Shown here piece after piece: positions 15,396 through 30,466 of a DNA stretch of 64,000 nt. The position numbers and the translations under genes are program-made. The notes beneath the pieces were generated by a model. That model saw only the letters and a list, made by a program, of their open reading frames with translations, was not told where the DNA came from and ran no database searches. Source of the stretch: Phycomyces blakesleeanus NRRL 1555(-) (lineage: Eukaryota > Mucoromycota > Mucoromycetes > Mucorales > Phycomycetaceae); the NCBI RefSeq assembly GCF_001638985.1, contig NW_017265159.1, forward strand, positions 1 to 64,000, in the 5' to 3' direction. Numbering within the stretch: position 1 is the stretch's first letter; each line of letters opens with the position of its first letter.

Positions 15396-16099
15396 TATTT
15401 AAAATGGAACCTTATTGTTCGCCAAATGTGGCAATGTATGAAGTTGCTCCATCCCCAACTCTTTTTATTCACTTAAATACCGCCCTTTTTAACACCTTTA
15501 TGAAAAAATGACACCACCATTGTAGTATCGATATATCTGTGTTCGGTTGATTAAAGTTTAGATAGAATTTCTATGAGTTGCAGTTTGACTCTTATTTTTT
15601 GGAGAAATTTGATTCAGAAGTAAGATAAAGAGATATTTATTGGTTTTCATTGATTCGTATTATTTTAAGACAGCCACACATAAAGACACTTCTTTTTTCT
15701 GTTCGTCATTCGTATTTGATCTTACATATAATATATAGTATAAATCCCTCTCTTATAACAAGTATTAATTAATTTATTCTTAATGGTTGTAAGCCATAGT
15801 TTTCTCTTTATTGACAAGGCCTATGCGTTTCATAAGTAACGATTGTGGCCAGCGTATGTGAGAAGTTCATTACTATCTGCATTTGGGTGTGTTAAATATG
15901 ATGTTTTCCCTTTGTGTGAACCTGCCCTGAAACTTTAGACTGAGTCATCGCTACAGAATTATAATACAATATTTAGTATTATATTTAGTGGTTACATTCA
16001 AATGGAAGCCGAGAAGTTTATTTCTTACTAAAGACAGCCAAAAACAAAGATTATATTAGCCTTGCTTTTTTTTAAAAAAAAGAAAAAGAAAAAAAAGGT

Positions 16100-17090
16100 T
16101 TAATTCAAATGAAATATATTTACCTGGAATGCCCAAGTAGTCTTTTTTGGCGACGCGCGCGCGCTCTTGACGTAGAGATCGTTATCAGGAGGCAATTCCT
16201 GTTTAATAAAGTATATGGATTGGTTAAAACAGATTGTTTATAGCTAATTATGATAAAAACCTTTTTTACACAACTCGAGAGCATAGATTGGATGGATAAG
16301 CAGACCTGAGCTACTGTCTGTACTGGAGACCAGTCTTTGTAGAGAATATTAAGGCAGATGTGACCATTAGAGTAAACCTAGATTCGGATATCAGCATTAT
16401 TTATCTCAACATAGCATACATTTGTGCACTAAATGACAATAATTACACTTTAAACATAGCAAGTTAATATACAATTCAAACTATAAATTAAGAATAGAAA
16501 GAAAGAAAGGCCGAGATACTTACTGAGGATGTATGGGAATTGAGGGTTGGATAAACATAACCTCTGGAGATTCCAATGGATATGATGGTGAAAAGCGGAA
16601 CTAATCAGAGTTGCGTTATTCATGCATGCCTTTATTCTTCTTTTTAAAGTAAATAAGCTCTCACCTCAAGATCGAACTCTTCTCCCTGTAGTCAATAGAT
16701 TGATTAATAATTTCTAGAATCAATTATTGAAAGGAAGAAAGAAACCTTTGTTATACATATATTACTTGCCTCATATAATGTGTTTGGTGCCCCTTTTATC
16801 CGTAATTGCCACCTTGATTAATGGTAAATGAATATCAATGGATGCTACGTAATCTTGAGATGTGATTGATCTAACTTTATTTATTTGTTTTTACCTCTTA
16901 AAGTCATTTGCTTCTTCAATTGACACACCTTCGGGTGAGTTGGCACTGAGATCTAAGAAAGAAGTGATTGAGGTGCCTTGAGTTGACTGCTCATTGTTTA
17001 TTGGAAGGGGATTGCTTATCGTAGCATAATGTTGAATCTATTACCCCGAAGTTCTTTAGTAAGACGTTTTTTGAATAGCCCGCTTGACAT
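16100..17090 (-). CDS. Ubiquitin-conjugating enzyme E2, UBE2W type, many tiny exons
   Basis: UBE2W-family E2s take ubiquitin from E1 on a catalytic cysteine and modify protein N-termini. Minus-strand exons read from the ATG at 17090 are 17045-17090, 16895-16952, 16770-16812, 16665-16685 (21 nt), 16524-16600, a candidate 1-nt exon at 16447, 16270-16377 and 16124-16198. The product begins MSSGLFKKRLTKELR and contains YPLESPEVMF, IPIHPHVYSNGHICLNIL (active-site Cys after HI), DWSPVQTV, CLSIQSMLSS and PPDN, in UBE2W order, about 143 aa. Intron 3 is GC-AG (GAG|GCAAGT). Without the 1-nt exon the junction into the catalytic exon loses frame, so the alternatives are a pseudogene or a sequence error. 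The C-terminus is unsure. Reading on from exon 16124-16198 stops at 16100-16102. A downstream GATGACTCAGTC-stop at 15935-15949 resembles the family's HDD tail but is out of phase with the only donor. Confidence 0.8.
16447..16447 (-). other. Candidate single-nucleotide exon (T) in the UBE2W gene
   Basis: The interval 16378-16523 between the exon ending CATCCTCA and the exon starting GTTTAC is 146 bp, about twice the typical intron here. Removing it whole breaks the frame by one base. It contains TTTAAAG|T|GTAATT: an acceptor, one T and a donor. This splits it into introns of 76 bp (16448-16523) and 69 bp (16378-16446), both normal sizes. The T completes CA+T = His, giving HPHVYSNGH as in UBE2W proteins. 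An alternative T at 16428 (TTTAG|T|GCAC) would give the same codon but needs a weak GC donor. Confidence 0.55.
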
Positions 17091-18991: not shown

Positions 18992-21253
18992 TCATTGACT
19001 GCGCTTCCAGACAGAATCACAGACCTGAATAACCTCCCACATGGGTCGAACATCATGTACACGTATGATGTTAGCCCCTCCTGCCACACTAGCTGCTACA
19101 GCACCAGCAGTACCAAAAGAACGCTTTTCTGCCTCCTGAACACCCGTTGCACTTCCAATGAACTTTTTGCGGCTAGGTCCCATAAGAGACGGGAATCCCT
19201 CTAAAAGAGAATCTGGTCCAGAAACAATCTCACCAAGATGGCGCAGAATCTCAAAGTCCTGCTTGGGGGTCTTGGCAAATCCTACACCAGGATCAGCAAT
19301 AATATTCCAACGGTAGACACCAGCAGAAATCGCGCGCTGAATAAGAGAATAGAGTTCGATAGACACATCTTCTACAACATCATCATTCTCATAAGTTGTG
19401 TTCTCTTTGGACATCATCGTCTTGGCATCTCCACGCATATGCATCAAACAGACAGGGACCTTGTACTTTGCCATCACACTTAGCATTGCCGGATCGCGAG
19501 AGCCACCACTGATATCATTAATCACAGATGCACCAGCCTTGACAGCAGCTTCAGCAACTGATGCTCTAAATGTATCGATGGAAATAGGGAGAGTAAAGCC
19601 GTTCTTTCTCAACTTCTCAATGACAGGGACCACGCGAGCAATCTCTTCTTCTTCTGGGAAATTATCGTCAGCACCAGGGCGTGTTGACATTCCACCAATA
19701 TCGATAATGTCCGCACCCTCCTCTTTCATGCGTTCGGCTGCAGCAACAGCCTTCTCCACATCCACGCACTTTCCACCATCAGAGAAACTGTCGGGGGTTG
19801 TGTTGAGGATACCCATGACATAAGTCTTATCCTTCCAACGCCACATTTTATTCTGAATAGGGATAACCTTGTCAATTTTCAAATTTCCTTCTTCGCTTTC
19901 GGCGGTGACCTTGAGAAGCTGGGACAAGAGCTGGCCACATGTCTTGTACAGCTTGGGATGCTCCATATCCTTGGCAATATCACACAGAGGCCACAAAACA
20001 AATTCACGCTCATGTAGGGCCAAATGGGGGATGGTGAGTTTTTCGGTATTAAGGAGAATATCGTTGTAGAATAGAATGTCAAGATCAATAGGACGAGGGC
20101 CGTTGCGAATACCCGCTGTTCTGCCCAAGTTATTCTCTACTTCTTTAAGTTTAGAAAGTAGCGCAAGGGGTTCGAGAGAGGTGACAACTTTGCATGCACC
20201 ATTCAAAAAGGCTGGCTGGTCAGTATAGTACATGGGAGGAGTTTCATAAAGAAAACTAGTGTCGAGCACAATGGAGTTACAGTTATTTTCGAGCATGTCC
20301 AGGGCTTGGTAAATATTGTTGACACGATCACCGACATTGGATCCAAGGGCAATAAAAGCGGTGTGGGCGTAAGAAGCGGGGATCTCCTTGGCAGCAGCAT
20401 CTTCCACAGAACGATGGACAAAAACCCGACCGGCCTTTTTCTCTTCCTCACGCACACGGTTCAACCACACTTGGTCACGGGTTACTTCAATTCCAGATGC
20501 ATCAGCAAACAAGATGGCACTGGGCTTCTCAATACGCACACGAATTTTGCGTACATGACACTTTTCAAGAGCAATACGGGCCACAACCACGGCGAAGGCC
20601 TCTACAGTCTTGTAGCCAGAAGATTCAATGTGACGAGTCAAAACGCGGACAATTGTTCGCAGGTTGTGAGACTTGCTTTCTTCGGACTTGTTAGAGGCCA
20701 GAGGTGAAGGATAGATAGTGAGGTTGATCACAACGACTTGCTTCTCTTCGCGCTCCCAGGGGTTGACGCCAATAATGGCATGAAGGCGGAGGTCTTTGAC
20801 AAACACCTCGTCTTCTCTGCCCAAACCAGATACATCACCTAGGGTTTCACCCTCGATACCCTCGAAATCGACCTTGGCTCGGCTCAAAATGACACCTGAT
20901 GCGGATGCATGCAATAATGCCTTAGGTTGTTCAACCTTGACCATGGTGCGGACGGCTCCAAAGTGGACGCAACACAGGCGGACGACGGCATGGGCCAAAG
21001 CTTCGAGGGATTTGAATGTACCAGTCTCAGCTAGTTTAGTTATCCCTTTTGTTACGTGGCCATAGTGGATTGAATTGGTAACAATATCGGAATCACCAGC
21101 TGCAGTAATATCAGTGTACAGCCAGACGCTGATAACAACAGGCTGAGACTTGAGGCGTTGCCATGAATCAACCCCAGTAACGTTCTTAAGAACCAGGTTC
21201 TTGATGAGAATACGGTCTAGCTGCTGTTCTTCCTTAATACTTGATTTTTCCAT
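18992..21253 (-). CDS. FOL1: Trifunctional folate synthesis protein FOL1 (DHNA aldolase / HPPK / DHPS)
   Basis: This catalyses three successive steps of tetrahydrofolate synthesis: dihydroneopterin aldolase, hydroxymethyl-dihydropterin pyrophosphokinase and dihydropteroate synthase. The frame is a single uninterrupted 753 codons, in a window where most genes are split. Two FolB-like domains lie at about 13-125 and 149-262 (the second has IIGVNPWER). HPPK is at about 298-425 (ALGSNVGDR, then RNGPRPIDLDILF). DHPS is at about 480-745 (MGILNTTPDSFSDGG, IDIGGMSTRPG, SIDTF, NDISGG, ADPGVGF, GPSRKKFIG). This order matches fungal FOL1. The DHPS loop STRPG carries the Thr and Pro found in sulfonamide-sensitive fungal enzymes. 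The gene is divergent from the threonyl-tRNA synthetase gene, 178 bp between start codons. Confidence 0.97.
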   Translation of the reverse strand: MEKSSIKEEQQLDRILIKNLVLKNVTGVDSWQRLKSQPVVISVWLYTDITAAGDSDIVTNSIHYGHVTKGITKLAETGTFKSLEALAHAVVRLCCVHFGAVRTMVKVEQPKALLHASASGVILSRAKVDFEGIEGETLGDVSGLGREDEVFVKDLRLHAIIGVNPWEREEKQVVVINLTIYPSPLASNKSEESKSHNLRTIVRVLTRHIESSGYKTVEAFAVVVARIALEKCHVRKIRVRIEKPSAILFADASGIEVTRDQVWLNRVREEEKKAGRVFVHRSVEDAAAKEIPASYAHTAFIALGSNVGDRVNNIYQALDMLENNCNSIVLDTSFLYETPPMYYTDQPAFLNGACKVVTSLEPLALLSKLKEVENNLGRTAGIRNGPRPIDLDILFYNDILLNTEKLTIPHLALHEREFVLWPLCDIAKDMEHPKLYKTCGQLLSQLLKVTAESEEGNLKIDKVIPIQNKMWRWKDKTYVMGILNTTPDSFSDGGKCVDVEKAVAAAERMKEEGADIIDIGGMSTRPGADDNFPEEEEIARVVPVIEKLRKNGFTLPISIDTFRASVAEAAVKAGASVINDISGGSRDPAMLSVMAKYKVPVCLMHMRGDAKTMMSKENTTYENDDVVEDVSIELYSLIQRAISAGVYRWNIIADPGVGFAKTPKQDFEILRHLGEIVSGPDSLLEGFPSLMGPSRKKFIGSATGVQEAEKRSFGTAGAVAASVAGGANIIRVHDVRPMWEVIQVCDSVWKRSQ

Positions 21254-25581: not shown

Positions 25582-27087
25582 ATGTCTTTTAGTACGCTTA
25601 TCCAGAGAAAAGGATCTCCACTTGTTCTATCTGTCAAGGACAATATCCTCACAGTTTTCCCTTATGAGAACACATTAATTGATACTACAAAAATCGAGAG
25701 TTATGATCTGAAGTATTTGTACGGTATTGAGTTGAAAAACACACCTCCTGTACTTGATATCCATATTTGCCATGTTAATCAACCCGCCCAAAACGAGGAC
25801 CGAAAAGAGCTATCGAGTTCAAAACACAAGGCTGCTGTGTGGGAGCGACATATTTTATCCTTCGAAGCCTTGGATACTACAATGTTCGCAGATGGTTACA
25901 AATATCTTGGACTGGATGCCTTTGTCAACCGTATTCGGGCCCAAAATTTACCCGAGTCCTCTATCATCGCGTCTACTCATATCTCAGTAATCTTAAATCG
26001 CCATTCTGGTCTACGTAATGCTTTTGATAACTGGACTGATATTGTGCAACCTATGCTTGTGATTGCTGGGTATAAACAGCACAACATAACTGTTGTTGAG
26101 ACCAAAGCAGACGGTAAAACCCGAGAAACTGCTAAAGAAATAGGCAAAGCGGTTCTGGAAAACACTGTACCTACAATCGTCATTTGTCTCGGTGGAGACG
26201 GCACCCTTCATGAGGTTGTCAATGGGTTGTCAGATGCTTACGATTTACAGCAGACAAGTGTAAAGTCTTCCCAGAATAACCACACACCACCTACTTTCCG
26301 ATTAGGTGTAGTACCTTCTGGATCTGGAAATGCATTCTCCCTCAGCCTTAATTTATCCAGCATTGAACACTCTGCATTGCAGATCATCAAAGGGAAATCC
26401 GAGAAATTTAAGCTAATGGATATTTCCTTTGGTTACTGTTCTTCCGATTCTCCCAGATGGTATGAGGATGTAACATACATGACCGATAAGCAGCCAATTC
26501 GTCTCTTGGTAGTCATGAGCTGGGGATTCCACGCCCAAGTTGTCTCCCAGGCCAGGAAACTTGATTTTTCGCTTGGAAACCAGCGTTTTGGAATGGTCGC
26601 TATGGACTTGCTGACAAATCTAAAAAACTATTCGGGCCAGGTGGCCATGATAGGCGCTCGAAAATACATCAGAGCAAACCAGAAATTTGGGAATACAGAA
26701 GAGAAACCTATACTAGTAGATGGTGTTCACGACAGGCAATTTACGTATTTTTTGGTTTCCAAGCAAGCATCACTAGAACCTGGTTTCAATATTACACCAT
26801 TCGCTTCCCATTCGAGCGAAGATATGGATGTATTAATGTTTCGTGAAGTAACAGCTGCCCAGCTCCAGGAGGCTAGTATAAAAGCATTCCAGGGAGGGCG
26901 CCATGTGACTGAGGACGAAGAAGACCTGATTGAATACTACAAAACTCCAGAGTTATTCTTACGAGTAGATGAACCCGATGAGCTGTGCCTGGATGGCGAG
27001 ATTCATGGGCTTGGGAAGGACGGTGTAGTGCATGTAAAAATAATTGGACCTGATCAAGGGGAGCCCGAATTCGAGGCATTTGTATGA
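25582..27087 (+). CDS. Sphingosine / diacylglycerol kinase family protein
   Basis: A lipid kinase of the DAGK_cat fold that phosphorylates long-chain bases or related lipids with ATP. The frame is a single exon of 501 aa. The start chosen is MSFSTLIQRKG, because the in-frame ATG eight codons earlier lies in a low-complexity leader. The nucleotide-binding core is visible: SVILNRHSG at about 142, CLGGDGTLHEVVNGL at about 207 (the GGDG signature) and LGVVPSGSGNAFS at about 248. A late LDGEIHG corresponds to the conserved DGE segment of sphingosine kinases. An N-terminal region of about 110 residues resembles the PH-like leader of long-chain base kinases. Substrate (sphingoid base versus ceramide or diacylglycerol) cannot be decided from motifs. 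I see no transmembrane segment. Confidence 0.9.
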   Translation: MSFSTLIQRKGSPLVLSVKDNILTVFPYENTLIDTTKIESYDLKYLYGIELKNTPPVLDIHICHVNQPAQNEDRKELSSSKHKAAVWERHILSFEALDTTMFADGYKYLGLDAFVNRIRAQNLPESSIIASTHISVILNRHSGLRNAFDNWTDIVQPMLVIAGYKQHNITVVETKADGKTRETAKEIGKAVLENTVPTIVICLGGDGTLHEVVNGLSDAYDLQQTSVKSSQNNHTPPTFRLGVVPSGSGNAFSLSLNLSSIEHSALQIIKGKSEKFKLMDISFGYCSSDSPRWYEDVTYMTDKQPIRLLVVMSWGFHAQVVSQARKLDFSLGNQRFGMVAMDLLTNLKNYSGQVAMIGARKYIRANQKFGNTEEKPILVDGVHDRQFTYFLVSKQASLEPGFNITPFASHSSEDMDVLMFREVTAAQLQEASIKAFQGGRHVTEDEEDLIEYYKTPELFLRVDEPDELCLDGEIHGLGKDGVVHVKIIGPDQGEPEFEAFV

Positions 27088-28824: not shown

Positions 28825-30466
28825 TAGTAAATTCAAAAACCGGGCCAGCAAATGTAAAATTTGTACTCCGCAACTTATATCTTCTTGAGTTCTTATTCTT
28901 TCGCGATAGTTTTAATACACTCTAGGACATCTGTTAAAGAGCTACAACATACTATGCTAGTATAGATATATATATATATAGTATTAATAAAAAGTTATAT
29001 GAAAAAAAGTGGAAATTTTCAGTGGCCCGGCTTTTTAGGTAAAGGTATCTTTTTTTATTTTTCATTAATAAGATACCCTTTCTTCAAAATGCATTTATGC
29101 ATTCTGCTTTGCATGGATTCAATTAGATTCTTGCACATCTCCTCTGGGATACTATCCCACTCATTCTGGAAACGGGACCACAATTCCCTCATTGAGCTGG
29201 CTGGCTCTTCATATTGGTAGAGTTTACCCTTTGTGTACGCCCAAAGGTTTTCGATGGGATTAAGGTCAGGCGAAAACGGTGGGAAATCAATGACCTCAAT
29301 CCCTTCTGCCTTCAACCACTTTCTGGTATTGGCTGCAGTGTGTGACCGGGCGTTATCATGCAAAAACATGATATCGGACTTGATGAGATTCTGCTTCTTC
29401 AAGGTCTTCAGTAAGCCCTGCTCCAAAACTGTTACGTATTTTGGGCTTGTCATGGTTTCATTGATCTTGAGAAGCTCTCCGTGACCTCTGGACGAAAAGC
29501 ATCCCCAAACCATAACGTGTCCTCCAGCACGAACAGGGGAAGTCTTACCCTTATATTTTTTAATTGCCGACTTCTTCGGCTTCCACCTCCATCTCTTTCC
29601 ATCCGAGCCAAAGCGATTCACCTTACATTCGTCTGAGAAGACAACACACTTCCAGTCCTCCACGGCGAAGTTGATATAGTTCCTTGCGAACTCCATACGC
29701 TGCTTGCGGATAGCGGGGTTTGTTTTTACCTTCGGAGGTGGTTCCAAGGTACAGATGAACCCAGATGCTTTTAGCAAGGTGCGGATTGCTGGAGCCTTGA
29801 CAGCAAAACCTTCACCACATAGCCGTCTCTCTGCCTCTGTTGTTGTCATAAATTCCTCATTTAGGAATGCATAGATGATACGGTGGGCGAACCTTTCATC
29901 GATTTGGGCAGGTCTACCCCCAGGAACTGAGGTAGAGATGTTCAATTTTCTTCGATATCTCTTGACAGAAGTCTGCGAAACATCAACAATCTTTGCTACC
30001 TCGGCTGTAGACTTTCCATGTCTAAGTTCAACTTCAATTGAGAGTATTTTGTCGCGTGAGATGGGAGACATTTTTGTTTTAAAGTTGAGCAAAGGAACAA
30101 GGAAAACTCTGAAAAATTCAATATAATATATCTATTTTGTTTGCATGATTGTGATGAAATGACAAGACACACTCCGTATAAAAATTATCATAAAGCAGAT
30201 CTGCATTGAAAGTAAAGAAATAATGCTTTACTCTATTTTTTGGCCCATACCTAAAAAACCGGGCCACTGAAAATTTCCACTTTTTTTCATATAACTTTTT
30301 ATTAATACTATATATATATATATATCTATACTAGCATAGTATGTTGTAGCTCTTTAACAGATGTCCTAGAGTGTATTAAAACTATCGCGAAAGAATAAGA
30401 ACTCAAGAAGATATAAGTTGCGGAGTACAAAGTTTACATTTGCTGGCCCGGTTTTTGAATTTACTA
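28825..30466 (-). mobile_element. Tc1-type transposon with ~218-bp terminal inverted repeats
   Basis: Left (28825-29041) and right (30248-30466) arms are nearly identical inverted repeats. The few differences include single-base changes and the length of an AT run. TA dinucleotides sit at both outer edges. The outer ends contain AAACCGGGCCAGC. The inner ends contain CAGTGGCCCGGYTTTTTAGG, a typical Tc1/mariner terminus in inverse orientation to the outer motif. This long-arm layout recalls the IR/DR arrangement of some Tc1 elements. The arms enclose one uninterrupted transposase gene. Near-identical arms and an open frame suggest a recent insertion that may still be mobile. Confidence 0.9.
29055..30071 (-). 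CDS. Tc1-like DD34E transposase
   Basis: The transposase cuts and pastes the element by binding its inverted repeats. The frame is 338 codons from MSPISRDK; an in-frame ATG seven codons upstream (30092) is also possible. The N-terminal helix-turn-helix is visible as KSTAEVAKIVDVSQTSVKRYRRKL. The catalytic triad is complete. The first Asp is in CVVFSDECKVNRFGSDG and the second in IMFLHDNARSHTA. The Glu is in DLNPIENLW, 34 residues after the second Asp, so DD34E as in Tc1. The protein is full length for the family, with no stop or frameshift. Confidence 0.95.
   Translation of the reverse strand: MSPISRDKILSIEVELRHGKSTAEVAKIVDVSQTSVKRYRRKLNISTSVPGGRPAQIDERFAHRIIYAFLNEEFMTTTEAERRLCGEGFAVKAPAIRTLLKASGFICTLEPPPKVKTNPAIRKQRMEFARNYINFAVEDWKCVVFSDECKVNRFGSDGKRWRWKPKKSAIKKYKGKTSPVRAGGHVMVWGCFSSRGHGELLKINETMTSPKYVTVLEQGLLKTLKKQNLIKSDIMFLHDNARSHTAANTRKWLKAEGIEVIDFPPFSPDLNPIENLWAYTKGKLYQYEEPASSMRELWSRFQNEWDSIPEEMCKNLIESMQSRMHKCILKKGYLINEK

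Follow-up and report, generated by a model that had tools for sequence, protein, structure and literature searches.

The UBE2W locus

The stretch of DNA analysed here, called the window, covers positions 1 to 64,000 of contig NW_017265159.1 of Phycomyces blakesleeanus NRRL 1555(-). Its minus strand carries, from 17090 to 15935, a gene for a ubiquitin-conjugating enzyme (E2) of the UBE2W type. The spliced model consists of nine exons and encodes a protein of 150 residues, which is complete when the single base T16447 is included. As assembled from the exons, the protein reads MSSGLFKKRLTKELRD...SIPIHPHVYSNGHICLNILYKDW...PKKTTWAFHDDSV. It matches PF00179 with 115.7 bits (cut-off 27) and features the two hallmarks of the UBC domain, a catalytic Cys—Cys90, within VYSNGHICLNIL—and a downstream Trp. 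Its best matches in the PDB are the E2 W chains 2mt6 and 8a58, which we take to be human UBE2W, followed by 3we5, presumably the Agrocybe enzyme UbcA1. The alignment with 2mt6 spans residues 6–149 and is ungapped at the codon of His82. A protein search of the whole genome, with the best candidates scored, lists 14 matches at E ≤ 1 and no second copy of UBE2W among them: five are exons of the UBE2W locus itself, and nine are other E2-like stretches with identities of 26–49%. The features of the gene are as follows.

17045..17090, minus strand: exon 1, 46 nt, with the ATG start (spliced model and spliced aligner)
16895..16952, minus strand: exon 2, 58 nt (spliced model and spliced aligner)
16770..16812, minus strand: exon 3, 43 nt, preceded by an AAG acceptor and followed by a GC-AG intron (spliced model and spliced aligner)
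16665..16685, minus strand: exon 4, 21 nt (spliced model and spliced aligner)
16524..16600, minus strand: exon 5, 77 nt, its final CCT CA| falling inside the His82 codon (sequence and spliced model)
16448..16523, minus strand: intron 5a, 76 nt, GTAAGT..TTTAAAG, phase 2, with a branch-like TTAAC 16 nt before its end (spliced model and site scoring)
16447..16447, minus strand: candidate single-nucleotide exon T, the third base of the His82 codon (CA-T) (frame, aligner and scoring)
16378..16446, minus strand: intron 5b, 69 nt, GTAATT..ATCTAG, phase 0, with a branch-like CTGAT 13 nt before its end (spliced model and site scoring)
16261..16377, minus strand: exon 7, 117 nt, reading VYSNGHICLNIL.. 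and carrying the active-site Cys90 (sequence, spliced model and family comparison)
16125..16198, minus strand: exon 8, 74 nt, its final TTC CA| falling inside the His146 codon (spliced model)
15951..16124, minus strand: complex last intron, 174 nt, parsed as a predicted [D1,2] twin intron (spliced model and site scoring)
15935..15950, minus strand: exon 9, 16 nt, C GAT GAC TCA GTC TAA, that is (H)DDSV and stop (spliced model)

Reading frame between exons 5 and 7

Exon 5 ends with CCT CA|GTAAGT and exon 7 starts with AG|GTT TAC. Removal of the 146 nt between them as a single intron leaves the frame one base short; the assembly reads CCTCAGTAAGT at the exon-5 junction. This frame gap, pointed out in the first-pass annotation, is real. 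Donors were tried over a stretch reaching from 33 nt upstream to 59 nt downstream of the exon-5 end, and acceptors from 59 nt upstream to 24 nt downstream of the exon-7 start; no single GT/GC-AG intron within these limits joins the two exons in frame and stays open through NGH. As the same annotation proposed, taking T16447 as an exon of its own (AAAG|T|GTAATT) divides the gap into introns of 76 and 69 nt and restores HPHVYSNGH; the full-length protein results as well, and site, coordinates and lengths agree upon re-reading of the sequence. The HPH of the protein, in place of HPN, is present only with the single-nucleotide exon, and the frame is broken when T16447 is left out.

When each flanking intron is required to measure 45 nt or more, three internal exons of 0–30 nt are in frame: T16447, T16428 and one of 10 nt. 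Only T16447 combines HPHVYSNGH with a donor within the range of the 51 reference introns described below. T16428 (AG|T|GC), which had been named as an alternative, likewise yields His; it was rejected since none of the 51 reference donors scores as low as its GC donor (GCACAA, −2.8). The 10-nt exon, the sole remaining in-frame candidate up to 30 nt, would add three residues and scores −1.8 at its donor; it was rejected as well. That the extra base stems from T16428 or from a longer micro-exon has, accordingly, the slightest probability of all the explanations considered.

A spliced aligner, run with no floor on exon length and no splice-site scores, picked T16447 with all five proteins supplied (P0001, P0008, P0010, P0011 and P0019), including P0011, which itself reads HPQ. 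The base was kept even with a frameshift on offer at a cost of 14, the cost of an intron being 12. The case for T16447 is one built from sequence.

Splice sites and expectation by chance

As a yardstick, 51 introns were collected by aligning human E2 proteins to this genome at 15 E2 loci, 14 of which contributed; locus L008 (score 136) was excluded, and some of the others rest on weak alignments (L001 and L022). L022, near position 1152000 of G000:C2, is a divergent E2-like gene, aligned with UBE2D2 without most of the catalytic-Cys segment. The reference introns are 48–179 nt long with a median of 84 nt. Two of them (in L002 and L021) are of the GC-AG type, as is the UBE2W intron at 16686..16769 on the minus strand (GCAAGT).

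Introns 5a and 5b both feature a usable donor, a usable acceptor and a branch-like element. Relative to the 51 introns—the same set from which the weight matrices were made—the donor of 5a lies at the 25th percentile and its acceptor at the 6th, and the donor of 5b lies at the 16th, rising to the 25th when CA stands before the T, with its acceptor at the 24th. The four sites, at the 6th to 25th percentile, are hence within the range of the reference introns, yet on its weak side. The donor GTAATT occurs in 1 of the 51, and a T precedes the donor in 11. The AAG acceptor, against which the first-pass annotation had cautioned, is normal locally: it closes 6 of the 51 reference introns and also intron 2 of UBE2W (ATCAAG).

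The lengths of 76 and 69 nt fit the local range, as had been argued. A length of 146 nt is equally normal in this genome, with 6 of the 51 reference introns measuring at least 140 nt, so that it is no argument for two introns and was dropped as such. This leaves room for an assembly error as the main rival: a pyrimidine would be missing at the end of exon 5, the genome would read CCTCAYGTAAGT, and one phase-0 intron of 146 nt, CAY|GTAAGT..TCTAG|GTT, would be removed, with AG-T-GT in its interior as a chance match. Such matches do occur. Among 40,000 random 146-nt windows, 8.3% contain AG[CT]GT flanked on each side by 46 nt of intron or more. An example is L004, a UBE2N-like locus, whose second intron, 145 nt long, has AGTGT at +59 though the alignment needs no extra base there. 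A site of this quality is more than such a chance match: the summed donor and acceptor score of T16447 is reached by 6 of the 218 AG[CT]GT sites on both strands of the window, itself included. The chance of an equally good site is roughly 0.2% per 146-nt intron, a figure that is the product of the two preceding ones and relies on matrices from only 51 introns. A missing base would, moreover, have to coincide with exactly the base that is needed, presumably outside any homopolymer, in a gene whose remaining exons all join in frame.

The HPH motif among homologues

In the available text of PMC4630614, HPH replaces HPN in Ube2w enzymes, and a role in stabilising the oxyanion hole is proposed for its second His. 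Among the best 120 of 672 homologues, 96 carry HPH, 7 carry HPQ and 17 fall outside the pattern; the latter comprise 6 with NPH, 1 with HPHDSNGH and 10 models from Mucorales or Umbelopsis that are disrupted at this place. The motif is thus not invariant in public models, contrary to the first-pass annotation, and because 7 of these 120 listed homologues have HPQ, the comparison does not strictly require a His. The seven (P0002–P0006, P0011 and P0016) are all genome models, which we take to belong to Mucorales; their HPQ active sites are either a real substitution or an intron misreading. Altogether, 23 listed genome models can presumably be placed, by their names, in Mucorales or Umbelopsis: six have HPH, seven have HPQ and ten are disrupted at the HPH codon.

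The HPQ models lend some plausibility to a non-canonical single splice that keeps the extra G (intron GT..TA or TA..AG) and leads to HPQVYSNGH, and the ends CCTCAG and GGTTTAC permit it on paper. It would require non-canonical intron ends, and HPH is read in the models of P. blakesleeanus, P. nitens—here within a model that is otherwise poor—and Spinellus as well as in P0008, P0010 and P0015; such a splice is highly improbable. The last three, labelled "lgn", are the ORFs of that label nearest to Mucorales models; they are uninterrupted and may be cDNA.

P0001, a public P. blakesleeanus protein, matches the present gene without a difference from residue 1 to 145, His82 included. It comes from another assembly, as its contig measures 3,478,076 bp and that of the window 722,799 bp. 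P0001 ends with QR, and this end is obtained from the present DNA by taking the last intron as one GT-AG intron. The identity of the 145 residues bears on the idea of a frameshift pseudogene in this strain, in which splicing of the single intron would break the frame after HP. Together with the intact state of the other exons and splice sites and the lack of a second UBE2W copy among the genome matches listed, it renders this idea very improbable.

For an assembly error, the homologues point in both directions. P0042 from Mucor circinelloides reads HPH-VRT, which fits read-through of CAY|GTAAGA, so that the layout with one intron after a complete His codon may exist in a relative, and the His82 of P0001 could stem from one more base (CAY|GTAAGT) in the other assembly. 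P0018 from Pilobolus reads HPQ-YVG, which fits read-through of CA|GTAYGT, a junction lacking the extra base. As judged by these protein letters, relatives may have their intron either behind the His codon or within it, and Phycomyces may combine both. An assembly error is, on balance, unlikely.

Proposed splicing of the candidate single-nucleotide exon

From the sequence, the frame, the splice-site scores and the family comparison, which are established, we infer that T16447 is included in the mRNA and in what order the splicing steps occur. T16447 is probably a true single-nucleotide exon of UBE2W, with a probability of roughly 0.77. The codon of His82, the second His of HPH, would be composed of CA from exon 5 and T16447, and GTT would open exon 7; the predicted junction in the mRNA reads CCTCA-T-GTTTACTC. 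Since a single base cannot hold the complexes of a 3' and a 5' splice site together, introns 5a and 5b, both ordinary GT-AG introns, would most likely be removed in succession by intron definition. If 5a were removed first, the second donor would change from AGT|GTAATT to CAT|GTAATT and rise from 5.8 to 6.9 bits, closer to the local donors. T16447 belongs to neither intron and would therefore be retained whichever goes first.

As to origin, the scenario put forward for a Fusarium gene discussed below, in which a base is lost close to an exon boundary and a cryptic exon makes up for it, would fit UBE2W. A tandem duplication giving rise to 5a and 5b was rejected, because 18% of 1000 mononucleotide shuffles equal their similarity. 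Searched against its own genome as DNA at E ≤ 1, the 146-nt stretch matched itself only, with no introner-like copies. Two collections were also scanned for DNA of relatives; the pattern was matched 50 times on genome contigs and 10 times on viral contigs, and no match was confirmed as a relative.

The last intron

The last intron of UBE2W (174 nt) parses as a spliceosomal twin intron of the [D1,2] type, a prediction that restores the conserved HDDSV end. The layout is CA-G|GTAAAT..CTTTAG|TAAGAA..CTGTAG|C: the internal intron (16123..16028, 96 nt, GTAAAT..CTTTAG) lies between nucleotides 1 and 2 of the external donor, which it splits as G|TAAGAA, and the external intron consists of G16124 and 16027..15951 (78 nt). 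Compared with the 51 introns, the internal acceptor lies at the 24th percentile and the rebuilt external donor at the 41st. The 96 nt of GTAAAT..CTTTAG would leave first, rebuilding CCA|GTAAGAA, and removal of the 78 nt would then give CA-C, the codon of His146.

UBE2W-type enzymes have a C-terminal tail of the form PKKT-W-x-[FY]-HDD. Of it, PKKTTWAF is read directly in the present protein, and HDDSV only if the intron is spliced as a twin intron; a plain intron from CAG|GTAAAT to CTGTAG leads from WAF to QR and a stop. An HDD tail is likewise present in the E2 W chains and in many homologues. On both strands together (128 kb), the pattern AG-Y-D-(D/E)-x-(V/I/M)-stop occurs once. Within the last intron, too, a tandem duplication was rejected, the similarity of its halves being equalled by 8.4% of shuffles. 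A search of the own genome with the 174-nt intron gave no introner-like copies; besides the intron, it returned one match of 24 bases, located within the same stretch on the other strand.

In the 23 listed models from Mucorales and Umbelopsis, WAF is followed by H in 10 and by Q in 13, and six of the latter (P0013, P0014, P0021, P0042, P0047 and P0050) stop exactly there. Ending at WAFQ corresponds to reading CAG-TAA after the first splicing step only. P0010 and the Mucor lusitanicus model P0013 share 95.9% identity across 145 positions; P0010 ends with HDDTV. Judging by the public models from Mucor and Umbelopsis that end in WAFQ, the twin intron may be shared more widely.

A broader reading is tentative and rather doubtful: two His codons (CA^Y) of Mucorales UBE2W would each carry a pair of introns that meet one nucleotide ahead of the downstream donor (single-nucleotide exon, +1) or one nucleotide into it (twin intron, −1), the two being neighbours in one serial, intron-defined series. 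As part of this reading, the 10 of 23 listed models disrupted at the HPH codon and the 13 of 23 with WAFQ would mean that the junctions are old, widespread in the group and misannotated.

Comparison with known systems

Nuclear single-nucleotide exons are already known from Arabidopsis APC11 and Fusarium CYP621A, and the UBE2W case is not the first in fungi; the earlier view of Arabidopsis as the only described case is outdated by the latter gene (PMC12940212). According to the available text of PMC4674806, the exon of APC11 is a single A in a gap of 422 nt, and its inclusion was proven by cDNA and reporter constructs. Both genes are nuclear, single-copy genes of the ubiquitin system with a frame-essential internal exon of one base in a gap bounded by GT and AG. 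They differ in that inclusion is proven for APC11, whereas the candidate exon of UBE2W is predicted from sequence, in a gap of 146 nt and with T as its base.

In CYP621A, as described in the accessible parts of PMC12940212 (2026), the single-nucleotide exon is a G (AGGGT), present in 20 Fusarium orthologues and covered by 18 SRA reads, and its authors propose that one base disappeared close to an exon boundary and that a cryptic exon made up for it. The likeness to UBE2W is that of a fungal nuclear gene with a one-base exon in a conserved motif, found by a frame mismatch; the gap is 139 nt in F. graminearum. CYP621A is, however, an Ascomycete gene with orthologues and reads, whereas UBE2W comes from one genome of Mucoromycota, with T instead of G, as seen in DNA.

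Single-nucleotide exons are also described between group II introns of fungal mitochondria (PMC12308204) and in mitochondrial cox1 of Placozoa (PMC5436844), as far as the text at hand of both papers goes. They share the one-base exon between adjacent introns and differ in that these introns are organellar and not spliceosomal.

The last UBE2W intron has the layout of [D1,2] stwintrons (PMC12403724; PMC9024468). The sets looked into in the available portions of these papers are from Ascomycota, in contrast to the UBE2W case, which is from Mucoromycota, unrepeated in its genome and predicted from DNA. Within the subset of stwintron papers searched for Mucor-related words, these words concern ordinary gene structure, and no stwintron in Mucoromycotina is mentioned with them. 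Nor was a report of a Phycomyces microexon found in the open-access literature.

If confirmed by RNA, T16447 would be a further nuclear single-nucleotide exon, outside plants and Ascomycota and in an active-site codon. For P. blakesleeanus, the available text of PMC11258239 reports Iso-Seq, PacBio assemblies of UBC21 and L51, and work on NRRL1555 (2024), so that the candidate sits in a fungus with reported RNA data able to test it. With a candidate single-nucleotide exon and a predicted twin intron in one gene, UBE2W would allow for a direct test of minimal intron spacing (exon lengths of +1 and −1). It would also exemplify a kind of exon that gene-finding programs may overlook.

Other features of the window

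Three further coding features are found in the window.

18992..21253, minus strand: uninterrupted ORF of 753 aa with FolB, HPPK and pterin-binding domains, a trifunctional folate enzyme
25582–27084: lipid-kinase-like protein, 69% identical to its P. nitens counterpart, which sets the window apart from that species
29055..30092, minus strand: uninterrupted ORF of 345 aa with a DDE_3 endonuclease domain (PF13358, 62.7 bits), a transposase-like gene
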